Below are positions 605-24,178 of a stretch of 34,044 nt of DNA, piece after piece (the stretch's first letter is position 1; every line of letters starts with the position of its first letter). The translations under genes and the position numbers were made by a program. The notes under the pieces were generated by a model. The model did no database searches and was not told where the DNA came from. It worked only from the letters and a program-made list of their open reading frames with translations. The DNA comes from a virus: positions 1 to 34,044 of the IMG/VR virus record IMGVR_UViG_3300008114_000086; one strand, written 5' to 3'.

Positions 605-1060
605 ATGAAACGATTGGGGACTATCAGTCTCTTATTCTTGGTCAACTCCTGCTTTTGTCAAACAATCTCAAAGGCAGGAGATGGCTGGGATACAAAAATT
701 GACAGTGCGATACAGATAATTAAAAAGTACGACTATCCTAAGTACGTTGTCTTTAAAGAAGTTTGTCAGCGAGTTGATTTTTGGAAAAGTTCTTTTTCTT
801 CCACAGGTATAGTTGACGGAGACTATACCATACTAGTAGCGGATGCAGATGTTAAGTTAAACTCAATCAATAACTTAGCCTGTGTCTTAGTTCATGAAAG
901 TCAGCATCTTATGTATGCAATGCAGGATAGTGACTTAAGTGAATCGGAAGAAGAATTTAGATGCTACTTGTACGAACTCTCCTTCGCAAAAAACATTCCA
1001 ACCCCCGAGCCTTGGTTACTGGCAAACATTTATGACAAATTGGAAAAATACAAAAAATGA
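605..1060 (+). CDS. Secreted HExxH putative zinc metallopeptidase
   Basis: This 151-residue protein begins with a Sec-type signal peptide (positive MKR, then a hydrophobic stretch to about residue 18). The Cys at 16 could serve as an atypical lipobox. Residues 97-101 read HESQH, a perfect HExxH zinc-binding motif within a helix (LVHESQHLMY), and an acidic cluster at 113-117 (ESEEE) could provide the third zinc ligand of a gluzincin-type peptidase. The start ATG follows the previous stop immediately and the end overlaps the next gene by ATGA, so it belongs to the same operon. Position between a cell-wall enzyme and a holin-like gene suggests a periplasmic or envelope role in lysis, but the substrate is unknown. 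I do not recognise the exact family. Confidence 0.6.
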   Translation: MKRLGTISLLFLVNSCFCQTISKAGDGWDTKIDSAIQIIKKYDYPKYVVFKEVCQRVDFWKSSFSSTGIVDGDYTILVADADVKLNSINNLACVLVHESQHLMYAMQDSDLSESEEEFRCYLYELSFAKNIPTPEPWLLANIYDKLEKYKK

Positions 1061-2094
1061 AAAAACTAATTCTGTTTGTAGTCGGGGTGTTGTGCCTTAC
1101 TACTAGCCTCTTTGCACAAAGTGCAAACACTTCTCCTGGAACTGGTCATTGGGTTGTAATTGACTCTGGCTATCAGGTTGCTACCACTACTGTCGGACAG
1201 ACAGTAGCACCTTTACATTTCTATAACACATCTACATCTGAAAAGATTACAGGTATGCAGTACAGAGTATTCTATGACAACACTGCGTTTACAGGTGTGG
1301 TTCCTTCCTTAAAGATTTCTACTTCAGACCAGTATCTTCAGTACGTAGACAGTAACGCACAAGGATTCTTAACTGTAACTCTAGCTTACACAGGTTCTAG
1401 TGCTAGCTTTAACTATTCTAATGGTGCTACTTTTGACCTTACGTTTACTCACGCAGCTAGTGCAGTTTGGAACAACTTAGATTCTATTAAGACTTTGAAA
1501 GTTGCAGGTGTTAAATCATTTGCAAACAAAGCTGCCACTAACTGGGGTAACGATACTACATTGGTAGTTTACTCTTATGGTGGTCGTTTCAATCAAAAGG
1601 TCTTAAGATTTGCTGCTAAGTTTAAAAACGTAACAGGTTCTGATGCTAAGAACTTGTGGGTTTCTTTAGAAAAGAAAGCTCCTTCAGGATCTTGGACTCA
1701 AGTAGAAGCCAAAGCAACTAACTCATTAGGTCATGTTGTGTTTCGTAAATTCTTAGACACTACTTACTGGGATGTACGTATGGTAGTTAAAGGAGACACA
1801 ATGACTCCAGGTAACGTATTCTCTACTGCAGATGCACAGAAGATTAACCAATCTATCTTAGCTCAATACACTCCTACAGGATTTGACTATTACACAATGG
1901 ATGTAAACAACACCAACGGAGATATTACTATTGCTGACGTATACTCAGTATACGGAAGATTGGCAGGTAGATTCTCGAGCTGGCCTAATTCTAAAAAGGA
2001 TGTAATGTTCTTCACAGTTGCTCAGTATAATTCTATTAACGGCTCTTCCACCAACCTTACCTCTACCTACTCTACCATTAATAACTTTGACTAA
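1057..2094 (+). CDS. Secreted cohesin-like/dockerin-like protein (upstream part of a broken gene)
   Basis: Signal peptide at residues 1-20 ending LFA|QS. Residues about 30-175 resemble a cohesin-type beta-sandwich (conserved YDNTAF and GATFDLTF segments). Residues about 180-250 look like an Ig-like domain. Residues 253-310 form a dockerin-like pair: a first half around STADAQKINQSIL, then the calcium-loop motif DVNNTNGDITIAD at 282-294. A tail of FFTVAQYNSI type follows. The frame stops at TAA 2092-2094, but the same frame continues immediately as sensible protein (KGDANSTGFK, then a second cohesin-like domain). The product is therefore probably the front part of a longer ancestral protein. 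It is coupled to the gene before by an ATGA overlap. Secretion to the cell surface is inferred; domain calls are by eye. Confidence 0.65.
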   Translation: MKKLILFVVGVLCLTTSLFAQSANTSPGTGHWVVIDSGYQVATTTVGQTVAPLHFYNTSTSEKITGMQYRVFYDNTAFTGVVPSLKISTSDQYLQYVDSNAQGFLTVTLAYTGSSASFNYSNGATFDLTFTHAASAVWNNLDSIKTLKVAGVKSFANKAATNWGNDTTLVVYSYGGRFNQKVLRFAAKFKNVTGSDAKNLWVSLEKKAPSGSWTQVEAKATNSLGHVVFRKFLDTTYWDVRMVVKGDTMTPGNVFSTADAQKINQSILAQYTPTGFDYYTMDVNNTNGDITIADVYSVYGRLAGRFSSWPNSKKDVMFFTVAQYNSINGSSTNLTSTYSTINNFD

Positions 2095-2809
2095 AAAGGA
2101 GACGCAAACTCTACTGGATTTAAGATGGCTCGTTTGACTCCTATCAAAATTGTCAACCAAGCTAACGCCAAAAAGTACATCATTGACAAAACAGTAAGTT
2201 ACGATGACCCTACTTTAGACGTAGTAGAAATCAACATGCCTAAAGTAACCGTAGATGCAGGTAACTTAGTAAACGTGCCTGTAAAAGTTTTAACTAACGG
2301 CAAGTCATTGGGTGCTCTTCAGTTAGACCTTAAGTATGATACAGCTTACTTAGAGTTTAAGAACGTAGAAGTAACTGATAAGATGATGAAGTGGACTTCT
2401 TATACCAACCCTTCTAACGGGTTATTGTCTTGGGGCGGTGCAGATTTAACCAACTCTAACTTGCTTGTAGATGGAGAACTTGCTTTTACACTACAGTTTG
2501 TTGCTAAGAAACCTCAAGACTCTTGGGCTACCGCAGCAATCTGGACATCAGAAAAGTACGTAGGAGACGACAAAGCAAAAGATATGGTCATCACTCCTGC
2601 TATGGGTATTATAGAAGTAAGACGTAAAGGTGTAGTTGCTATGAAAGACATCTCGTCTTTGTTAGTATATACAAACCATCTTAGACACAAAGATGCCCAA
2701 AGGTTCCTACACCTATACTCCTAGCTTAGAAAGACTATCTAACGGCACATACATCTTAACTTTGAAAACCAACAAAGACATATTAGATTCGAAACTATTA
2801 ATTATATAA
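2095..2809 (+). pseudogene. Downstream part of the broken gene: cohesin-like domain plus type IX-like sorting tail
   Basis: This stretch continues the previous gene in the same frame after one TAA codon. An ATG at 2125 could restart translation, but it would lack a signal peptide. Bases about 2224-2620 encode a clear cohesin-like domain (VTVDAGNLVNVPVKV, LDLKYDTAYLEF, LAFTLQF). Around 2665-2674 the coding sense moves to the +1 frame; in the original frame it ends at TAG 2722. The shifted frame runs to TAA 2807-2809 and encodes YTPSLERLSNGTYILTLKTN then SKLLII. That pattern (LxxGTYIxxL and a terminal K-L-hydrophobic end) resembles C-terminal sorting domains of the type IX secretion system. Two lesions suggest a decaying gene, a recent mutation or sequence errors; programmed recoding is less likely. 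Confidence 0.65.
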
Positions 2810-2813
2810 AACT

Positions 2814-3179
2814 ATGAGCCTTAAAGACAAACTTGGTTTTGGCCAAGCAGAACCCGTAGCAGTAGCAGATAACAATCGTTTTTACTACATGCTACAACAG
2901 ATGCAAGCTAACCGTTGGAAGATTACTGCCATTGTGTTAGGTTTGTTTACTTTAATTATTGTAGGCATTAACTCTGCCGTGTTCTTTGGAGCATCTATCG
3001 GAGAAGATTGGAAAGAACTATTACTTATTCTTTTAGGTGCCTTTGTAGGTAACTTGAATAAGGTAGTAGACTACTGGTTTAACTCTGAAGACCGTGACAA
3101 AATGTTGATAGCAAAGGTGGATGAGGAAGATGATACCCCAGAAATTTTAGCTGCTAAGTACAGTAAAAAAGAAGATTAA
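2814..3179 (+). CDS. Holin-like two-helix membrane protein
   Basis: The protein has 121 residues with two predicted membrane helices, at about 36-58 (ITAIVLGLFTLIIVGINSAV) and about 68-85 (LLLILLGAFVGNLNKVV). A soluble N-terminus precedes them and a strongly charged acidic/Lys tail follows. The segment GAFVGNLNKVVDYWFNSEDRD is typical of small holin-type proteins of Bacteroidota phages as I know them. Size, two-helix layout, charged end and position next to cell-wall enzymes all fit a holin that permits lysis through the inner membrane. It starts four bases after the end of the broken cohesin gene. It could instead be an antiholin or another small membrane protein. Confidence 0.65.
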   Translation: MSLKDKLGFGQAEPVAVADNNRFYYMLQQMQANRWKITAIVLGLFTLIIVGINSAVFFGASIGEDWKELLLILLGAFVGNLNKVVDYWFNSEDRDKMLIAKVDEEDDTPEILAAKYSKKED

Positions 3180-3194
3180 TAAGTAAATTTACAC

Positions 3195-3782
3195 GTGGCT
3201 TATCTTTACCGACATATTAGACTTGATAAAAATATTCCTTTTTATATAGGGATAGGTGTTGATGATGATGGAGGAAACTTCAGAAGATCCAAGGCAAAAG
3301 AACATCGTAATGAATACTGGCATAATATTGTAGCCAAAACAAGTTACAGAGTAGATATCATTATGAATGACTTGAGTTGGGAAGAAGCTTGTGCCAAAGA
3401 AAAGGAGTTTATTAAGTTATATGGAAGAAAAGATAAGTCTCAGGGTTTTTTAGCAAATCAAACTGATGGAGGTGATGGAGGTACTGGTGTAATTGTAAAA
3501 CCAGAAACACGAGAGAAGATACGGCAATTCCAAATTAGTTTAGATAAGAAAGGAAAACCAGGTAGGGTATGGACGCAAGAATCAAAAGATAAACTTGCAA
3601 ATACAATACGAGGAGTTAAGCATAGTCCTGAAGCTATCGAGAAGATGCGTAAGCCTAGGGAAAACACAGAAAATTATAAATATCCCAAAGCAAAAATACC
3701 ATGTCAAGTTTGTGGTTTTATGGCGCAACCTGCTGCAATTTCAAGATGGCACAATAAAAACTGTAAAAAAATTAATCCATAA
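3195..3782 (+). CDS. GIY-YIG homing endonuclease with NUMOD3 repeats and a zinc-finger tail
   Basis: The only in-frame start is GTG at 3195, since a stop lies just upstream. Residues 4-19 hold the two halves of the GIY-YIG core in the form YLY...FYIG, followed by basic residues (FRRSK) and a helix carrying the conserved Glu (EEACAKEKEFIKLYG). Residues about 100-150 contain repeated DNA-binding NUMOD3-type motifs (KPETREKIRQ, SKDKLANTIRGVKHSPEAIEKM). The C-terminus has C-x2-C-x12-H-x3-C, a probable zinc finger. Such enzymes nick or cleave specific DNA sites and spread as selfish free-standing genes between phage genes. Here it separates the holin-like gene from the small membrane protein gene. 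Its gene is more A-rich than its neighbours, consistent with independent acquisition. Confidence 0.9.
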   Translation: MAYLYRHIRLDKNIPFYIGIGVDDDGGNFRRSKAKEHRNEYWHNIVAKTSYRVDIIMNDLSWEEACAKEKEFIKLYGRKDKSQGFLANQTDGGDGGTGVIVKPETREKIRQFQISLDKKGKPGRVWTQESKDKLANTIRGVKHSPEAIEKMRKPRENTENYKYPKAKIPCQVCGFMAQPAAISRWHNKNCKKINP

Positions 3783-3786
3783 TATT

Positions 3787-4107
3787 ATGTCAGAAGAACA
3801 AGAAGAAGGCGGAATGTCTGGAGTTAAAAAGGCAATCATCGGAGCCATCACTACCGCAGTAACTGCAGGTGGTGCTTGGTTTGCTACTACTTTAGGTGGT
3901 GGAGATGAGCCTGCAGCTTCAGCAGCTACAGCTGCACCCGCACCCGTAATCAACATTACTAACAGTAATGAGAATCAGCAGAAGCAACAAAATAATGGCG
4001 GTGGCAACACTGTAATTATTAAAGAGAAAGCAGTACCAGCAGCAGCTCCTGCTCCAGCTCCAGCTCCTGCCGCTAAACCCCAAGCAGATGAAGAAGATCC
4101 TTGGTAG
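3787..4107 (+). CDS. Small Ala/Pro-rich membrane-anchored protein
   Basis: I chose ATG 3787, giving 106 residues, because the longer frame upstream lies inside the endonuclease gene and is not protein-like. After an acidic start there is one hydrophobic segment (about residues 14-32, AIIGAITTAVTAGGAWFAT). Then come a Gly/Asn/Gln-rich linker (NQQKQQNNGGG) and an Ala-Pro repeat (AAPAPAPAPAA) with an acidic end, EEDPW. A single anchor followed by an extended, Pro-rich, periplasm-spanning region is compatible with a spanin-like or other lysis accessory role, but no family is recognised. It overlaps the CsgG-family gene by 20 bases, indicating translational coupling. The sequence is low-complexity, so homology calls would be weak. 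Confidence 0.65.
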   Translation: MSEEQEEGGMSGVKKAIIGAITTAVTAGGAWFATTLGGGDEPAASAATAAPAPVINITNSNENQQKQQNNGGGNTVIIKEKAVPAAAPAPAPAPAAKPQADEEDPW

Positions 4108-4777
4108 TTTACTAATTGTAATCCTTGTCTATGGTTGTGGTTCTATGAAGACCACAACCGAGGATGAGGTTATTGAGAAAGCAGACATCTCTACTGTCTC
4201 TAACTACACGGACTCTATCAAGAGAACCGTGCAAGTTATCAGTATGGACATGACCAAAGTATTGGCTATGTACCCAGACTTACAAGAGAAGAACGTAGGT
4301 TTAGGTTTTGCAGAATCCGTATTAGATTATTTAGATGAGACAAATCGTTTTGTATTTACTGAAGAGAAGGGAGAAATCAAGGAAAGGATGGTAACCCAGT
4401 TTAAGGCTTCTAAAAAAGGAGTCTTTGAAGAACCCATTGATGGGAAAGGAAAGATTAAAGCAGCACAATACTTTGTGTATGTGACTGTTGCTGACTTTGC
4501 CGTAGATGAGGATGAAACTGTAGAAGGAGCTAAAGCTAAAGTAGTTGTTACTACCTTTATCCGTTTGCAAGTTCGTTTCGTAGATGCAAAAACAGGGCAA
4601 ATCTTTATAGGCTCAGGAGAAGGAGAATCCACTAAGACTGGAGAATCTTTCTTAAAGTCATTAGACGGAATGAAGTTTTCTCAAAGCACAGTAGGTAAGG
4701 CTACACGTAAATCACTAGAAACTGCTACAACTAAAGTGATTGAAAACCTTATCAAGAACGGTGTCTTTAAGAGTTAA
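4088..4777 (+). CDS. CsgG-family outer-membrane lipoprotein
   Basis: The protein has 229 residues. The N-terminus MKKILGSLLIVILVYGCGS is a lipoprotein signal with the lipidated Cys at 17. The body follows the CsgG plan as I know it: a VLDYLDETNRFVF segment (the 'grF' helix/strand), an alpha/beta segment with AAQYFVYVTVADF, then a strand pair RLQVRFVDAKTGQIFIGSGEGES corresponding to the family's hallmark 'R..D..TG.i' motif, and a final Ala/Thr-rich helix. CsgG forms a ring-shaped outer-membrane pore that exports curli subunits in bacteria. A phage copy next to several Sec-signal proteins suggests a phage-directed envelope pore or lipoprotein ring. Whether the full pore-forming barrel hairpins are present cannot be judged by eye. 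ATG at 4088 is inside the preceding gene's end. Confidence 0.75.
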   Translation: MKKILGSLLIVILVYGCGSMKTTTEDEVIEKADISTVSNYTDSIKRTVQVISMDMTKVLAMYPDLQEKNVGLGFAESVLDYLDETNRFVFTEEKGEIKERMVTQFKASKKGVFEEPIDGKGKIKAAQYFVYVTVADFAVDEDETVEGAKAKVVVTTFIRLQVRFVDAKTGQIFIGSGEGESTKTGESFLKSLDGMKFSQSTVGKATRKSLETATTKVIENLIKNGVFKS

Positions 4778-6209
4778 CATATTAATCTTATTGATGTGTA
4801 TAGGACTGAGTGTAAAAGCTCAGTCCTTCACATACTCGTACACAGACCCGTGTACAAAACAATTGAAGTTCATAAGTGCAGATATGAACTCACCCATAGT
4901 AATAAGTTACTACGGACAAGTAAAAAGTTTTAGTTACACAGAACTACAGGATGGTACTTTTGACAACTGGTTAAACTCTACCTACATAAACTTCAAAAAT
5001 GCCAAACCTTGTGAGGGAGTATTCTCAACAACTACAACTACGACCTCTACTACTACGGTAACTTCTCTAGTAAATAGTGTGATGAATCTAAACTCTTTAT
5101 CTAGTTTAGACTTATCTTCGACATCATCAATAGGATCTAGTGCTTCAGTAGGAAGTACAACATCCTCAGGAACAACAGGAACGACAGGTAAAAATGGAAG
5201 CTCGAATAATAAATCCCGTAGTAATGGAAGTAATAATACTACTGGGTCTTCTAGCAATAACTCTAGTCAAGGTGGCGAATCATCTGGACAAGGGTCCAAT
5301 ACGTCGTCGGAAGGACAAATAGACAACAATGGAAGCACTAATGGAAATAGTGGAAGCAGCGGTTCTTCTAACTCTGGGAGTAGTTCTGGGAGTGGTTCTA
5401 ATTCTTCTAATTCTAGTAATAGCAATGGTTCTAGCGGAAGCGGTAGTGGAGGTACAACTGGCAACAATAAATCTGAAGAGAAAACTCCTGAACAAGTCGA
5501 AGAACAAAAGTCCGAAACTCAACAAGCAGGAGGAAGCGCTTCAGCAAAGTCCGCAGCAAAAGGTAAAGTAGAAACACAGAAACCTGCAATCCTAGTTACA
5601 GGAGATATCGTAGGTGTTCAAACAATCAAAGACCAAGCACAAGATGCACGTGGTACAATGTCTCTAACTAAAGTTAAGGGAGATGGTACAGCATCAATTG
5701 GATTCTCAGCCGACTACATGCTTAACGCAAAGATTGGAAACTTCAATGCAATGCGTTCTTGGATGGGCGCAAACAACAAAGGACACAAGCATATCAACGT
5801 TCTTTCCGCAGGAGTTAACTTTATGCCTAAGTCTTACAACGGCTCAATGCTTTTTGTAAGGGTAAACTCTCTAAAGAATTTTACAGCACTATACGGAGCA
5901 GCAGGTTCTTATGGACAACTGTTTGAGGAGGAAGTTATCTCTACTTTATTGATTGGAGGTTTTATGTACAAAGGAAAGTTGAGTAAACAAATAGACGCTA
6001 CAATTATTGCTGCGGCTGTTTACGCTCCCTACACAAAGTATTATACGGAGAGTTTGTTTGAGTCTCAGCCAATCATAGTTCCCTTTCTAAACATAAACTA
6101 CTCTATAACTAAGACTTTTAAGTTTGGTTTAACTGGAGGAGGAACCTACATAGCAAACCAAGACATTGTTAACTATCAAATCTTAATGGGAGGTAAGTTA
6201 AAGATATGA
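4761..6209 (+). CDS. Secreted Ser/Gly-rich protein with beta-rich C-terminal domain
   Basis: I favour GTG 4761, which gives a clean signal peptide (SLRVNILILLMCIGLSVKA|Q); TTG 4740 is an alternative and both overlap the end of the CsgG-family gene. Numbering from TTG 4740, residues 28-92 are a small domain with two Cys (PC at 37-38 and 90-91). Residues about 96-245 are a very low-complexity Ser/Thr/Gly/Asn linker, and 246-280 are charged. Residues 281-489 form a beta-rich domain with alternating aromatic/hydrophobic strands, ending MGGKLKI, as in outer-membrane barrels or beta-sandwiches. The pairing with CsgG suggests export to, or residence in, the outer membrane. Function is unknown; a partner or substrate of the CsgG-like pore is an inference. 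It overlaps the next gene by ATGA. Confidence 0.65.
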   Translation: MSLRVNILILLMCIGLSVKAQSFTYSYTDPCTKQLKFISADMNSPIVISYYGQVKSFSYTELQDGTFDNWLNSTYINFKNAKPCEGVFSTTTTTTSTTTVTSLVNSVMNLNSLSSLDLSSTSSIGSSASVGSTTSSGTTGTTGKNGSSNNKSRSNGSNNTTGSSSNNSSQGGESSGQGSNTSSEGQIDNNGSTNGNSGSSGSSNSGSSSGSGSNSSNSSNSNGSSGSGSGGTTGNNKSEEKTPEQVEEQKSETQQAGGSASAKSAAKGKVETQKPAILVTGDIVGVQTIKDQAQDARGTMSLTKVKGDGTASIGFSADYMLNAKIGNFNAMRSWMGANNKGHKHINVLSAGVNFMPKSYNGSMLFVRVNSLKNFTALYGAAGSYGQLFEEEVISTLLIGGFMYKGKLSKQIDATIIAAAVYAPYTKYYTESLFESQPIIVPFLNINYSITKTFKFGLTGGGTYIANQDIVNYQILMGGKLKI

Positions 6210-7402
6210 GGTGGCTTATTGTTTTATTCTTATTCTCAGGCTCTCTAGAAGCACAGTTTACCTATTCTGGATACTTGTATAACGCAAATGGTTCTGGTGC
6301 CTCTAACGTAGCTGTAAAACTTTTTAAAAGTACAGCAGGGGCTACTACAAAGACAGGAACGCTAACTAAGATAACATCTGGTATTCCTTCTGATAGAGGA
6401 AGAGGAGGTTCTGTTTTACACTCTACCCTTAACACAGATGAGAAATCAGTTGCTGTAACTATTCCCTTTACGGTAAGTTATGCGGGTACAAATTATACAA
6501 GTGGTCACGTTAATGCTAACTCTTGGTTTACTTTTGGTACAAGTTCAAGTTCTGGTTATAACGGAAGTGCTACCAGTCCTAACCAACCCACCATCCATAT
6601 CGGCTCGGTAGATAATGGTTCTACAGATAATAACGTTTCTTATGTCTCGACTGAAGCTTACACAGATGGAACTTACGGAGATGTGTTTAGGGTTAGGTAC
6701 GAAGGTAACTGCAAATACAATCAAACAGGAATCAACTATGTTTGGGATTTGTACTTTATCAAGAATCAAACAGCAAAGCAGATAGTAGTTTGGAGAACAT
6801 TTACTGCTGATGGTTCAAACCAAGAGGTAATGGGTATATCCACAGGTAGTGCGTGGATGGCAAATTCATTCGTTACCTCAGGTACTTTTTCTAGCACTAG
6901 TTGGGAGATAACATCAACGTCAACCACAACAACCTCTTCTAGTTCTTTAGACGCTACAGCATACACAAACTCATCAGGCTATTATTCTTTCTCAAGAACT
7001 ACAGTTGCAGGGAATCAATTTACGATTCAAGTAGATGCGCCAACTAGAGTGCAAGCTTATACCACTACAGACATACAGAATATTTCTAACATAGTTTTAG
7101 GAAAGACTGCAATAAATGGACTTTCTTATCATATGTTTGATGTTAATGATGACGAGAGAATAAACATAGCAGACAAGTACTACATAGCTGCTAGGAAAGC
7201 AGGAAGATTTTCTAAGTGGAGAATCGCACCTGATGTAAGAATCTTTACCCTAGCTCAGTACAATGCCATAGTAGCTTCTAAAGTAAACGTACGTACAACT
7301 TACCCTGGAGTTAGTACGCATACAACCTCAACTTTAACTAGTGGAGGAACTCTGAATCTTTACCTTATAGCTCCAGGATACTCTGGGGCAGTAGCTTATT
7401 AA
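6206..7402 (+). CDS. Secreted protein with virion-surface-type beta domain and dockerin-like C-terminus
   Basis: Signal peptide MRWLIVLFLFSGSLEA|Q. Residues about 18-45 (FTYSGYLYNANGSGASNVAVKLF) and 247-278 (AYTNSSGYYSF...FTIQVDAP) together resemble a split carboxypeptidase-regulatory/Ig-like domain. Between them residues 80-235 form a beta domain starting IPFTVSYAGTNYTSGHVNANSWFTFG, a pattern I have seen in phage and marine surface proteins. Residues 285-340 are dockerin-like, with the calcium-loop-type segment DVNDDERINIAD at 312-323 and then RKAGRFSKW. The segment IFTLAQYNAI matches the tail of the dockerin in the gene at 1057. No cohesin or sorting tail follows; the protein ends GYSGAVAY. 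Function is unknown; calcium-dependent binding to a cohesin-like partner is an inference. Confidence 0.65.
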   Translation: MRWLIVLFLFSGSLEAQFTYSGYLYNANGSGASNVAVKLFKSTAGATTKTGTLTKITSGIPSDRGRGGSVLHSTLNTDEKSVAVTIPFTVSYAGTNYTSGHVNANSWFTFGTSSSSGYNGSATSPNQPTIHIGSVDNGSTDNNVSYVSTEAYTDGTYGDVFRVRYEGNCKYNQTGINYVWDLYFIKNQTAKQIVVWRTFTADGSNQEVMGISTGSAWMANSFVTSGTFSSTSWEITSTSTTTTSSSSLDATAYTNSSGYYSFSRTTVAGNQFTIQVDAPTRVQAYTTTDIQNISNIVLGKTAINGLSYHMFDVNDDERINIADKYYIAARKAGRFSKWRIAPDVRIFTLAQYNAIVASKVNVRTTYPGVSTHTTSTLTSGGTLNLYLIAPGYSGAVAY

Positions 7403-7404
7403 CC

Positions 7405-7845
7405 ATGAAAAAACTAATCATAATCCTCACAACCGCCCTCACGGCATCACTAGGTGCTCAATGCTTTACGATTGACACAGTAAGAAATCACACTCACTTG
7501 CAAACTATTGCAGGTAGACCTGTTGACTTTGGAGTAGTTCCTACTGCAGAACAACTAATCTCTAACAAGTATTCTATCTGCGACAATGGTATTAAAGTAG
7601 AGTTAGCTTTAAACACAATTGCTGTTCCTCAGAGAATTATAAACATCGTAGGAATACAACTGCTAAAGAGAGATTACGTAGTCAATATGTCTATCACAGC
7701 TAATAACATTACACATTATTCTCGCAACGTAAAGACTGTTTATGTAAACGCTATGTTCCTTACCGTAGAGCAGATTCCTGAGAACAAAAAGGCATACTCT
7801 AAGGCAGTTGAGAAGTGCTTAATTGATTTAGTTAAGCAGTTGTAG
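7405..7845 (+). CDS. Small secreted protein of the CsgG-linked cluster
   Basis: The protein has 146 residues with a clear signal peptide (MKKLIIILTTALTASLGA|Q). The mature part has three Cys, a predicted beta core (VVNMSITANNI, TVYVNAMFLTVEQIP) and a terminal helix (NKKAYSKAVEKCLIDLVKQL). The strand-then-helix ending is loosely like the end of the CsgG-family protein upstream, but I do not recognise the family and cannot call it CsgE or CsgF. It is the last gene of the secreted-protein run, starting two bases after the previous stop, and is followed directly by a hairpin that looks like a terminator. It is probably co-expressed with the CsgG-family gene and the dockerin protein. Confidence 0.6.
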   Translation: MKKLIIILTTALTASLGAQCFTIDTVRNHTHLQTIAGRPVDFGVVPTAEQLISNKYSICDNGIKVELALNTIAVPQRIINIVGIQLLKRDYVVNMSITANNITHYSRNVKTVYVNAMFLTVEQIPENKKAYSKAVEKCLIDLVKQL

Positions 7846-7884
7846 CCCGTATTTACTAGGGTTCTTACCCCTACGGCTATTTTA
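7843..7884 (+). terminator. Probable intrinsic terminator ending the secreted-protein operon
   Basis: Starting at the TAG stop itself, TAGCC pairs with GGCTA, with a GTA/TAC continuation across a bulged C and an inner GGG/CCC. A run of T follows at 7880-7883. The hairpin is imperfect, but its place between the last gene of one module and the promoter of the next supports termination. Confidence 0.55.
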
Positions 7885-9897: not shown

Positions 9898-11898
9898 ATG
9901 CACTTAGATAGTCCAGAGTTTTTTGTCAACACTAAATCTATTCCTGATAAGGAATCTTCTGAGTATGTGGCTTTTTGGGAAGCGGAAGATAGAAAGATAA
10001 CTGAAGGTATAACCATCAATGGTTTTTACTTTTCTCCTTTTGTGTATTGGCACTTAAACTACTGGTCTATTTACGTAGATACTATAGTAGGCAAACGTCA
10101 AGTTCGCCGACTAGACAGACCGCAGTTATGGGATACATATCTAGCGGTAGATGATACCATACATAAAGCAGAGAATCATGCTGAGGGGAAGAAAGGTGTT
10201 GTGATGGTAGGTTCTCGTCGTATCTCTAAGTCAGTATTGACTTCATCGTATATTACCCATAAAGCAGTTACCCAGCGTGGTAGCGATAATCTTATCAGTG
10301 CACTTAACGGACCCGATTTAAAAATTATAACTGAGTACGTAGATTTAGGACTCAGAAACCTACCAGAGTACTTTAAGTTTCCTCGCATAGAAGATGATTG
10401 GAAACGACAAGTAACTCTAGGATACAAAGACAAACAAAACGTAAGACATGAATGGTCTAAATTCCACATCCGAAACTTTGATGAAGGCAACAATACGGAA
10501 GCAGCTGCTGGTCTCACTCTATCTTCTTTTCTATTGGAAGAAGGAGGAAAAGGAAAGATTCTCAACTGTTTGGCAGCAACTACTCCTTGTTTTGACAGCC
10601 CATATGGATGGCGTTGTTCTCCTTTTGTCATTGGGACTTCGGGAGACATGACTAAAGCAGGGGATCTTGAAGAACTCTTCAATAACCCTGAAGCCTACAA
10701 CTTCCTTGCCGTAGAGTCATTAGACTCAGGTAAGTCTTATGGTTTGTTTATCCCAGGCACTAAGTCTTTGAAGGTTCCAAAAGAACCTAAGCCTCTTGGA
10801 CTTTACCTAGAAAATCCAGTTCCATCGGAATTAGACGATATAACAATTTGGGTATCTGATGAGGAGAAAGGCAAAGAACAAATCCTTAAGTCTCGTGAGC
10901 AGATAAAGAAATCAAGTGGTCTAGAAGCTTACTTGAAAGAGGTAATGTATTATCCTCTTACGCATGAGGAGTGTTTCTTAGAACTATCTCAGAACATCTT
11001 CCCAGTAGACTTACTCCAAGAACAACTACAGAAGATTACTAGTTTAGAAGCCAATCCTGATTACGTAGAGTTAGTGCAAAAGTCTGACGGTACAATAGGT
11101 CACAAGTTTACTGAGAAAAAACCAGTACAAAACTTTCCTTCTAAGCCTACTGAGAATCTAGAAGGAGTTGTACAGATATGGGAGTATCCTATTCTAGGAG
11201 CACCCTACGGTCTTTATACTGCAGGAACTGACCCATACAAACAATCACAAGCCAAGTACTCAACCTCACTTGGCTCTACTTACATCTACAAACGAGTCCA
11301 CGATATAGCAGGTGAAGGTTGGTCAAACATCGTAGTAGCCACATACACAGGTCGCCCTAAGAAAATAGAACAATGGTACGAGACCACTAAGATGCTTCTC
11401 AAGTACTATAACGCTAAGAGTCTTTGTGAGAACATGGATATGGGTTTCATACAGCATTGTATTGAGAAGAACGAAGCACCATTCTTCTTAGAGAGAACAC
11501 CGTCTTTTCTAAACGACATTCACCCTAGTAGTGCCGTAAACCGTGAGTATGGTATACACATGACCAACGATATCAAAGATTACCTCAACTCTCTTATCAT
11601 AGAATACATTACCGAAGTGATTGATAGAGAGACAGATAAAGATGGTAACGTCATTAAAGAGAGGTTAGGTGTAACTAGAATCTTAGACCCTTTACTATTG
11701 AAGGAGTTGATTAAGTTTACTCCCAAGTTAAACGTTGACCGAGTGATTTCTTTTGGTTTGACTATAGCAATGGCTAAATCCCTAAACGGTAAGTCAGTTA
11801 TAGTATCCTCTACTGAGGATGCACGTATGCAGGATTACTTTAAATCTACTAAATCTAAGCAACTCTTTAGGACAACTCGTAGTCCGTTTAGGTACTAA
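9898..11898 (+). CDS. terL: Terminase large subunit (DNA-packaging ATPase/nuclease)
   Basis: This 666-residue protein powers DNA entry into the capsid and cuts the packaged DNA. The ATPase half shows a Walker A-like GSRRISKS at residues 105-112, a Walker B segment FLLEEGG at 211-217 with the catalytic Glu, and a coupling motif IGTSGD at 245-250. The RNase H-like nuclease half shows acidic positions in AGTDPY (Asp 445), CEN (Glu 511) and VDRVISFG (Asp 614). Length and motif layout match crAss-like TerL. The Walker A departs from the classic form by Ser in place of the last Gly (ISKS rather than GKS). It starts one base after the preceding small gene and is followed by a 99-base A/T-rich gap before the portal. 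Confidence 0.93.
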   Translation: MHLDSPEFFVNTKSIPDKESSEYVAFWEAEDRKITEGITINGFYFSPFVYWHLNYWSIYVDTIVGKRQVRRLDRPQLWDTYLAVDDTIHKAENHAEGKKGVVMVGSRRISKSVLTSSYITHKAVTQRGSDNLISALNGPDLKIITEYVDLGLRNLPEYFKFPRIEDDWKRQVTLGYKDKQNVRHEWSKFHIRNFDEGNNTEAAAGLTLSSFLLEEGGKGKILNCLAATTPCFDSPYGWRCSPFVIGTSGDMTKAGDLEELFNNPEAYNFLAVESLDSGKSYGLFIPGTKSLKVPKEPKPLGLYLENPVPSELDDITIWVSDEEKGKEQILKSREQIKKSSGLEAYLKEVMYYPLTHEECFLELSQNIFPVDLLQEQLQKITSLEANPDYVELVQKSDGTIGHKFTEKKPVQNFPSKPTENLEGVVQIWEYPILGAPYGLYTAGTDPYKQSQAKYSTSLGSTYIYKRVHDIAGEGWSNIVVATYTGRPKKIEQWYETTKMLLKYYNAKSLCENMDMGFIQHCIEKNEAPFFLERTPSFLNDIHPSSAVNREYGIHMTNDIKDYLNSLIIEYITEVIDRETDKDGNVIKERLGVTRILDPLLLKELIKFTPKLNVDRVISFGLTIAMAKSLNGKSVIVSSTEDARMQDYFKSTKSKQLFRTTRSPFRY

Positions 11899-21679: not shown

Positions 21680-22237
21680 ATGGCACATAAAGCACATAAA
21701 CCTTGCTGCGAACCTAACAACTGTGGAGAAATCATTCCTTCTAAGTGTGTTAAGTATACTGGTACTCCTACCACTAATGGTCCAATAGACAAAGAGTTTG
21801 AATGTACTCCTTATCTAAATGACGTTATTCATTTGTTTGATGACAACTTTAAAGACATTATTGAGAAAATCGGGATTAGTAAATCTGCCCTTGACAATGC
21901 TAACACATCTTGTGGTCTTGGTTTGGTTAATACTAGTTCTCTCACGACATATACAGTTAATGATACTCGCTATGTTCAAAGCGAAGTAGTAGTACAACTG
22001 TTGAATGTAGTATGTGCCCTACAAAAACAAGTTAACTACTTAAAGAGTGAAAACGCTACTACAGATAGTGGAAACGTTTTCTGGTTAGACTTGCCTTTAG
22101 ACCAAGACTTTAAGACTTGGTTGAGTGTTAATGGTCAATGTATTTTGACTGAGCCTTGTGCACCTGCTGGTGGAATCACAAATTTGCGTGGTTTACTTCA
22201 GGTGATGATAACTAAACTTTGTACCTGTTGCCCATAA
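21680..22237 (+). CDS. Cys-rich fibre-associated structural protein
   Basis: The protein has 185 residues with Cys in clusters at both ends (KPCCEPNNCGEIIPSKC; LCTCCP). The segment KCVKYTGTPT near residue 24 parallels KCISYSGDGL in the next gene's fibre protein, suggesting a shared virion-attachment module. The middle is helical (LNDVIHLFDDNFKDIIEKIGIS; VVQLLNVVCALQKQVNYLK). It is directly upstream of the probable tail fibre and probably works with it as an adaptor or short fibre. There is no signal peptide, so any disulfides would form only outside the cell. Confidence 0.6.
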   Translation: MAHKAHKPCCEPNNCGEIIPSKCVKYTGTPTTNGPIDKEFECTPYLNDVIHLFDDNFKDIIEKIGISKSALDNANTSCGLGLVNTSSLTTYTVNDTRYVQSEVVVQLLNVVCALQKQVNYLKSENATTDSGNVFWLDLPLDQDFKTWLSVNGQCILTEPCAPAGGITNLRGLLQVMITKLCTCCP

Positions 22238-22252
22238 TTAATCTAAACTATA

Positions 22253-24178
22253 ATGACTACTTGCGTTGACTGCTACGGAACCAATAACATAGAACCTTGT
22301 GCTGAGGTAGGATGTCTTTCCACTAACTACGGAAAATGTATTTCTTATTCAGGAGATGGACTTTACTGTTCATTGGGTCCTATTAACACCTTTACTTATA
22401 GTGGTACTGCTGTTGCCATAGTTTCTGAAGTTACTGTAGTAGTTAGTTCTACTGGCGGTACAGGTTCTGGAGCTACTTTTAGTGTAACTCGCGGCCCTTC
22501 TTCTACCTCATACACAATTTCTATTGTAAACAGAGGTAGTGGATATGCAGTAGGAGATACTTTAACTATTGCTGGTACAGCAGTAGGTGGTACTGCTCCT
22601 GCAAATAACATCTCAATTGCAGTAACTACATTGTCTGCCTTGATTGATTCTACCTACACAGTAGACGCAGCAATCAAGAACTTGCATGATCGTATCTGTA
22701 ACTTAACTCCAAGTGGACTTTTGTACAGTGGATTTAACTTCTCTTGCCTTCGTCAAGGAGGTAACTTAGAGTCAGTAGGTGCTTCAATTACAACTGCACA
22801 AGGATTTGCTGAATCAGCTTCTGCTGCCTTGTGTGCTTTAAACACAAGAGTTAAAGCAGTAGAAACTCCTACATTTACAGTTCCTGGTTGTGTAGTAGGA
22901 TTGACTTCAGGTGTATCTACGCTTGGTGCAATCTTGACAGAGTATGGAAGTAAGCTTTGTGCTATCGCAAGTGGTAGTGGAGGTATTACAATCACTGGTG
23001 TAACAGTTCCTGGTAGTTGTACTATGACTGCACAACCATCATCAACTGCCGCTATTGGTACTTGGATTGATTGGGTAGTAGATAACTTCTGTTCAATCAC
23101 TACAGGATTAAACGCAGCAATCACCTCAACCAACAGTAACGTAACTACAATCAGTACATTCTTAGGAAGTACAACTAGATTTAATAACAGCGCTAACTGC
23201 TTAACTGCCTTAGGAGGTACTGCAACTGATTCAGCTCATGCTACCATCGGTTACTTGACTACTAAAGTATGTGCAGTAGATACTACAGTTACTGCAATCC
23301 CTTCTTACATTAAGAATGATAGTGTAGCACTTAACTGGGTAGGTTGTTTTGGTTCTGCTCCTTACAGTTATTCTAACACAGGTGCAAGTATCCAAACACA
23401 ATTACAACGTATTGTAGCAGTACTAAACGCAGAGAAGACTACTTACTCTGGAGATTTTGTAGTAACTACAGCAGGTTGCGGTTCTAAAGTTGTTTCTTTA
23501 GCAGCAGGTGCAGCGTTTTCTTGTGCTTCTTTAGCTGCTTGTTCTATTGATTCTTTGGGTGATGTAGTTATTACAACTCCATCTAACCCTCACGTTCTTT
23601 ACTACAACGGCACTAACTGGGTTAACAAGAACATCAATGCCTTGGTTACTCTAAGTAGCACTGACACAACTGTTGCTATAACCACAACTACAACTGCAGG
23701 TAACGTAAACTATGACTTGAGTGTTACTGGTCTTACCGCTACAAGAGCAAACCTTACAGCAATTGCAGTAGTAGGAGCTAACAATACATTCCCAGCAGGT
23801 TTCCCAACAACTCCTGGTAGCGGATATGCATTAGTAACTAAACAAGGAAGCATCGTAACCTTAGCAGGAAGTATTGAGTTAGTTGTAACTAGCGGACTTA
23901 CTTTAGCTAGTGGTTCTTTGGTTGCTCTTGCTACAGTACCTGCAGGATTTAGACCAATTGCAGGAACTATTAGTTTCTATTGCAGAGTGTTTAAGAAAGC
24001 AACTGCTCCTTACACAGACCCTGATGGTTCATTTGATGCACGTATTACAATTGATACTGCGGGTACATTAACTATGATTCCATTCCCCGTATACCCTGCA
24101 GCTAGTTTGATTCTTTCTACTGCAGGAAGTAAAGTAGAAGTACTAATTGGAGGTAACTCTTACAGTATTCTACCATAA
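22253..24178 (+). CDS. Probable tail fibre / receptor-binding protein with Cys-paired repeats
   Basis: The protein has 641 residues. Residues 1-45 form a Cys-rich head (MTTCVDCYGTNNIEPCAEVG, KCISYSGDGLYC). Residues about 58-126 are an inserted beta module with GSGATFSVTR, NRGSGYAVGDTLTIAG and APANNISIAV, a repeat type common in phage fibres. Residues 165-340 contain four Cys-paired units (Cys pairs 165/194, 213/236, 256/280, 316/340). From about 440 a beta-sandwich tip ends with VPAGFRPIAGTISFYCRVF and SKVEVLIGGNSYSILP. Size, Thr/Ser/Ala/Gly-rich beta composition and modular build fit a fibre that recognises the host surface. The next gene module starts after a strong terminator. Confidence 0.75.
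   Translation: MTTCVDCYGTNNIEPCAEVGCLSTNYGKCISYSGDGLYCSLGPINTFTYSGTAVAIVSEVTVVVSSTGGTGSGATFSVTRGPSSTSYTISIVNRGSGYAVGDTLTIAGTAVGGTAPANNISIAVTTLSALIDSTYTVDAAIKNLHDRICNLTPSGLLYSGFNFSCLRQGGNLESVGASITTAQGFAESASAALCALNTRVKAVETPTFTVPGCVVGLTSGVSTLGAILTEYGSKLCAIASGSGGITITGVTVPGSCTMTAQPSSTAAIGTWIDWVVDNFCSITTGLNAAITSTNSNVTTISTFLGSTTRFNNSANCLTALGGTATDSAHATIGYLTTKVCAVDTTVTAIPSYIKNDSVALNWVGCFGSAPYSYSNTGASIQTQLQRIVAVLNAEKTTYSGDFVVTTAGCGSKVVSLAAGAAFSCASLAACSIDSLGDVVITTPSNPHVLYYNGTNWVNKNINALVTLSSTDTTVAITTTTTAGNVNYDLSVTGLTATRANLTAIAVVGANNTFPAGFPTTPGSGYALVTKQGSIVTLAGSIELVVTSGLTLASGSLVALATVPAGFRPIAGTISFYCRVFKKATAPYTDPDGSFDARITIDTAGTLTMIPFPVYPAASLILSTAGSKVEVLIGGNSYSILP

Follow-up and report, generated by a model that had tools for sequence, protein, structure and literature searches.

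Why does a virus with the packaging genes of a crAss-like phage carry, beside an endolysin-like gene, a run of genes whose products bear export signals? The window analysed here, a 34,044-nt stretch covering positions 1 to 34,044 of the IMG/VR record IMGVR_UViG_3300008114_000086, encodes the crAss-like markers terminase large subunit (phrog_6681), portal (phrog_6547) and head protein (phrog_11589). Its terminase shares ~28–38% identity with those of crAss-like, Cellulophaga and Flavobacterium phages; among cultured phages, the terminase gene (9898–11898) has its top match, at 38%, in Leptolyngbya phage Lbo-JY46, whose recorded source is a cyanobacterium. The island of interest, all of whose features lie on the plus strand, follows the endolysin-like gene (2–604, with its 5′ end beyond the window; phrog_33083 endolysin, 3.6e-12; phrog_3000, 1.8e-35), which we treat as context. 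From their position, the island genes are presumably expressed late, and a preliminary description of the sequence had interpreted them as a set of functions directed at the envelope of the host.

The ORFs are present at all six positions that this description had singled out (605, 1057, 4088, 4761, 6206 and 7405), on a single strand, with overlaps at 605–1060/1057, 3787–4107/4088, 4088–4777/4761 and 4761–6209/6206, and export signals are found in all six and again in the aligned relatives. A simple signal rule called 7 of the 10 island genes and none of the 23 others (Fisher p = 2.8e-5); the call on the GIY-YIG/NUMOD-like ORF at 3195 is a false hit, and its removal leaves 6/10 versus 0/23 (p ~2e-4). 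Other details require amendment. The ORF at 1057 is not a stand-alone gene but the first part of one broken gene, continued at 2125–2724. A lipoprotein signal fits the 4088 product, which has a lipobox in the window, but the signal of the 605 product looks SPI-like in most relatives. The terminator thought to close the island exists as a hairpin at 7857–7873, but it is weak and such matches occur at close to chance level.

To place the island in context, we collected loci by scans with the window CsgG-like protein and with its homologue from Flavobacterium phage immuto, which yielded 120 and 113 confirmed viral stretches, respectively, and assessed co-occurrence in 96 fetched CsgG-bearing loci with at least 5 kb of flank on each side. 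The scaffold domains, a one-transmembrane (one-TM) gene, the CsgG-like gene, a barrel gene, a dockerin gene and a 7405-type gene occur together in 96/96 loci, a figure that expresses association and not frequency, because the loci were picked by their CsgG-like gene. The single-TM protein (3787–4107) has, in the alignment, a disordered-looking tail ending in DPW, and its gene lies just upstream of the 4088-type gene in all 96 loci, overlapping it in 66. The 7405-type gene (7405–7845) encodes a small exported protein, aligned across relatives. Two members are optional: an exported HESxH (HExxH-type) zinc-protease-like protein (605–1060; 71 of 96 loci) and a holin-like small membrane protein with two hydrophobic segments by eye (2814–3179; 64 of 96), for which Pfam and phrog searches gave no convincing family match. 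In an alignment of 12 relatives of the 605 product, the H-E-S-x-H motif and downstream acidic residues are invariant, and the protein is a candidate zincin-like metallopeptidase; searches of Pfam and the PDB returned no peptidase match for this family. An ORF with a HESFH zincin-like motif also lies near the packaging genes of a phage without the module (L044:7387-7773), and a signal-bearing thioredoxin-like gene (8.3e-4) occupies the slot after the lysin in a module-negative relative (L034:7067-7432). The GIY-YIG/NUMOD3-like homing-endonuclease ORF (3195–3782; NUMOD3, 0.0067) is an insertion outside the module gene set and is absent from most relatives. It sits between the holin-like and one-TM genes and has high-identity matches in L053, L054, L129, L039, L027 and L028.

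The gene-neighbourhood comparison thus identifies the island as a conserved, mobile module common to several phage lineages, the crAss-like phages included. Its carriers fall into four or more terminase lineages, which include crAss-like and Immutovirus-like phages. Of 24 genomes that carry the module, only 5 gave a match to the terminase of the window, two of these at 29% identity. The immuto terminase recurs at 56–100% in ten records, while four others, including two of >300 kb, match it at ~30%; the head genes of immuto are T4-like, and a tail sheath is annotated in its genome. The CsgG-like protein of the window is 98–100% identical to those of L036, L040 and L051, although their terminases are only 72–76% identical, and 84–89% identical to those of L083, L100 and L119, which have Immuto-type terminases. 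As near-identical CsgG-like proteins stand beside divergent terminases, the module has moved between lineages. A genome-contig scan with two short patterns, which reaches only close relatives, found no bacterial source; its single match, L133 (RFPL01000028.1), a 16.5-kb contig of a 'Sphingomonadaceae' MAG that carries the module, is probably a mis-binned phage contig. The module also has a cultured carrier: in immuto (NC_055915; host Flavobacterium sp. LMO8), gp13–gp19 (~10.5–16.4 kb) encode the lectin–dockerin, split scaffold, TM, CsgG-like, barrel and small proteins, as in the module, annotated only as lectin C-type, cohesin domain-containing or hypothetical proteins. Immuto differs in that its scaffold is encoded by two genes, as in immuto-type phages generally, and in that no lysin or holin gene is adjacent.

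The scaffold gene (1057–2809) is broken in the window into ORFs 1057–2094 and 2125–2724. In the near-identical loci L053 and L129, it is intact as a single 629-aa ORF, and the L129 copy (L129:3657-5543) differs from the window by two gaps, at which 42 and 95 nt are missing from the window, and otherwise agrees with it at 99% identity. The 42-nt gap leaves a TAA at the junction (2092–2094), and the 95-nt gap near 2665–2675 shifts the frame. A programmed split was rejected in view of the missing nucleotides and of these intact, near-identical relatives, which indicate that the normal state of the gene is intact; being broken, the window copy may be non-functional or mis-assembled. The intact protein consists of a signal peptide, a weak cohesin-like domain, a dockerin, an X region, a cohesin and a type IX secretion system (T9SS) type A sorting tail. 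The L129 protein matches Cohesin (PF00963; 6.6e-12, above the cut-off), Por_Secre_tail (PF18962; 1.2e-10) and TIGR04183 (8.2e-9), and the hallmarks of T9SS type A cargo, a signal peptide plus a TIGR04183/PF18962 C-terminal domain, are therefore present; the sorting tail occurs in 95 of the 96 loci. In the PDB, the cohesin profile retrieved cohesins of cellulosomes (best, 1.8e-5); for the first cohesin-like domain, six of eight members gave Pfam matches of 4e-4 to 0.06, below the cut-off.

The exported dockerin protein (6206–7402) retains its N terminus and dockerin end throughout the family and exchanges its centre, which in the window is of a 400-aa type without an assigned family. Profile searches identified Lectin_C (1.2e-18), GEVED (2.7e-14), Laminin_G_3 (2.7e-11) and PA14 (4.9e-7) domains of Pfam in the centres of relatives, and in large phages the centre combines a C-type lectin with a ConA-like lectin (Laminin_G_3). 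The exchange is visible between very close relatives: L003 and L035 have TerL proteins that are 99.7% identical and are 100% identical over the compared CsgG-like stretch, yet they carry unlike centres between matching ends, and the pair L030 and L031 shows the same pattern. No catalytic domain was found in the 20 dockerin proteins scanned, some of which have centres without a family assignment, and the assigned families suggest that the central domains bind glycans. The Ca-binding loop of the dockerin is conserved as DVNxDGxITIxD, which fits DxNxDGxxxxxD, and the first repeat is degenerate. The dockerin profile matched at least eight cellulosomal dockerin chains in the PDB (best, 1.4e-4), and Pfam Dockerin_1 matched 3 of 17 members (best, 0.0068). 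Together with the cohesin matches, these features suggest that the scaffold and the dockerin protein pair physically. Across 16 genomes, the profile gave 33 matches, two each in 15 genomes and three in one. By coordinates, all 33 fall inside the module: 32 are in genes that had been identified as scaffold or dockerin-protein genes, and the last lies between the barrel and 7405-type genes, the usual dockerin-gene slot, so no other protein in these 16 records, structural proteins included, has a recognisable copy.

Two further constant genes encode probable envelope proteins. The exported lipoprotein at 4088–4777 has a sub-threshold Pfam match to CsgG (0.018). Its AlphaFold2 model (pLDDT 73, pTM 0.67), compared with the PDB by Foldseek, returned CsgG in all of the top 16 matches (best, 2.0e-6; TM ~0.45), followed by PelC, GNA1162 and LptE. 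Sequence profiles of this family and of the 7405 family gave no matches in the PDB, so that CsgG is seen by structure only, and a direct comparison with E. coli CsgG, made with shallow profiles, gave nothing significant. The hairpin stretches comprise 24–25 and 31–34 aa, compared with 33 and 38 in E. coli CsgG, and contain a conserved acidic EDE. On the strength of the model, the protein has a CsgG fold; any pore is putative, as the hairpin stretches are both short and acidic and part of the family lacks the lipobox cysteine. The gene at 4761–6209, which starts with GTG, encodes an exported protein with an N-terminal domain, a ~160-aa S/G-rich disordered linker and a predicted 12-stranded C-terminal β-barrel. 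Its AlphaFold2 model shows the 12 C-terminal strands at low overall confidence (pLDDT 56), and the best Foldseek match of the barrel is FapF (4.5e-4), followed by other barrels, with PelB also listed. PelB/PelC is a known case of a CsgG-fold ring that works with a separate barrel. The module thus shares with PelB/PelC a CsgG-fold ring protein and a separate barrel, and with FapF a 12-stranded, polypeptide-exporting barrel, both of which appeared in the structure searches; unlike in the Pel and Fap systems, no partner genes were recognised near the module, and the likeness is one of fold only. The C terminus of the 7405 product weakly resembles the CsgG-like family, which we note as a hint.

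The best explanation of this gene set, to which we assign a probability of roughly 60%, is a phage-encoded surface-display module that coats the infected cell with swappable lectins by means of cohesin–dockerin pairing and the host T9SS. The scaffold would be exported by Sec and then probably carried to the outer surface by the host T9SS, where its cohesin would hold the dockerin-tagged, lectin-like protein; its own dockerin may also chain scaffolds together. Export or anchoring of the lectin proteins is probably the task of an envelope assembly made up of the one-TM protein, the CsgG-fold protein and the 12-stranded barrel; such a ring plus barrel would resemble PelB/PelC, the favoured model, or the exporters of curli and Fap. 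The outcome would be an infected cell covered with interchangeable glycan-binding domains. The sorting tail and signal peptides suggest the T9SS use and the export routes, and the former would imply Bacteroidota hosts for the uncultured carriers. Most likely, the module serves to make infected cells adhere to particles or to cells nearby, which would bring progeny into contact with new hosts; the masking of receptors against rival phages takes second place. The surface remodelling and attachment envisaged in the preliminary description fit well with a set in which cohesin, dockerin, T9SS tail, swappable lectins, barrel and CsgG-fold protein always occur together.

The same anatomy would serve superinfection exclusion or the blocking of competitors, in which lectins on the cell would occupy surface glycans or receptors of the host itself and so prevent other phages from adsorbing. 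By swapping the binding domain, phages could keep pace with changes in host glycans, and the module is accessory, being present in 28 and absent from 12 of the crAss-like terminase relatives with enough upstream sequence. However, simple masking needs no elaborate scaffold, and a PADLOC search, whose library covers bacterial defence, gave no match; we consider exclusion as the main function unlikely, although it is the foremost of the alternatives.

A lysis module, in which opening or destabilising the outer membrane would fall to the CsgG-fold protein and the barrel instead of spanins, is a more doubtful explanation still. Carriers of the crAss-like lineage have the module next to the lysin gene, often with a holin-like gene within it, and a lysis role has been proposed for phage curli pores (PMC9004378). 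Moreover, module-negative phages often have at that site a pair of genes for a TM/coiled-coil protein (93 aa) and a signal/coiled-coil protein (146 aa). Both are absent from 10/10 module-positive contigs (94–122 kb); among module-negative contigs, the 93-aa gene occurs in 4/6 and the 146-aa gene in 2/5, plus a weak third. In L022:6261-7004 and L046:6262-6988, the two genes are adjacent and follow the lysin, as a candidate two-part spanin. The adjoining lysin and this pair are the reasons for keeping lysis as a minor alternative; the pair is, however, missing from some module-negative phages too. The preliminary suggestion of a multi-part lysis system is further weakened by the layout of immuto, whose annotated endolysin–holin pair at 43.7–44.8 kb lies 27 kb from the module, and by the holin-like gene, which is missing from a third of modules; no constant endolysin and holin are thus found in or next to the module. 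Two genes of immuto are annotated as endolysin (22125–22685 and 43732–44349), of which only the second adjoins the annotated holin; the first lies 5.7 kb downstream of the module. It is not obvious what lectins, dockerins and a T9SS tail would do in lysis, and they are better suited to surface display.

Very improbable, in our assessment, is a functional-amyloid exporter of the curli or Fap type, in which the CsgG-fold protein and the FapF-like barrel export fibres. The CsgG fold, the top match of the barrel and the S/G-rich region point in this direction, and phage curli are known (PMC9599517, PMC7029224). Yet the low-complexity stretch is part of the barrel protein itself, no curlin-like gene was seen by eye or with Pfam, and profile comparisons, limited to shallow profiles of these two genes, linked neither the barrel with CsgF nor the 7405 family with CsgE at a significant level. 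A CsgF-like look of the mature barrel N terminus (FTYSYTDP versus MTFQFRNP) was dropped, as the profile comparison lacked significance. Cohesin, dockerin and lectins are foreign to curli and Fap. That the module proteins are instead virion components, serving as receptor-binding decorations, is barely credible: the domain swapping recalls tail-fibre adhesins, but the signal peptides and T9SS tail lead out of the cytoplasm, where virions assemble, and the 16 genomes have no dockerins outside the module. The paper on Baltic Flavobacterium phages (PMC7077304) mentions neither cohesin nor virion mass spectrometry.

Display of lectins on the infected cell, as favoured here, has partial precedents. 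Published work describes curli genes in phages and their movement from one phage family to another, and suggests roles in sibling capture, aggregation, exclusion and lysis (PMC7029224, PMC9599517, PMC9004378). The phage curli/type VIII secretion genes of pelagiphages and the methylophage Melnitz share with the module a CsgG-fold protein, a multi-gene organisation and movement between unrelated phage families. Unlike phage curli, the module lacks detectable CsgE or CsgF and any curlin that we could see, has shortened, acidic hairpins in its CsgG-like protein, and includes cohesin, dockerin, lectins, a T9SS tail and a separate barrel. With the cellulosome, it shares a scaffold cohesin and a dockerin on partners with a variable functional domain; unlike in the cellulosome, the dockerin proteins scanned have ligand-binding domains, with no catalytic ones found, the scaffold has a dockerin of its own and ends in a T9SS tail, and the system is phage-encoded. 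As it differs in these features from both, we place it in neither. Among phages, genes whose products bear T9SS type A sorting domains have been described in Cryophage, where they vary between close relatives (PMC7468147), and among some BACON crAss-like ORFs (PMC6949934); the passages on them concern cargo genes and mention neither a cohesin–dockerin set nor an envelope complex. A search limited to open-access journal papers found none on a phage cohesin–dockerin–CsgG system or on cohesin in crAss-like phages. The nearest known kind is a phage-borne surface-protein secretion module. Whether the module amounts to a phage system of an entirely new category, horizontally mobile and built as a cellulosome-like plug and socket with its own envelope ring and barrel, whose exchangeable lectins coat infected cells and decide their contacts with cells, particles and rival phages, we judge an evenly balanced question.

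Because a cultured carrier exists, in immuto on Flavobacterium sp. LMO8, the display of lectins can be tested now. If it is true, phages of at least four terminase lineages would re-dress the surface of their host with modular binding domains before lysis, and conserved 'hypothetical' genes in ~200 viral contigs would gain a role. It would also offer natural cohesin–dockerin–lectin parts, and would change the picture of phage–host contact, aggregation and phage competition in aquatic environments.
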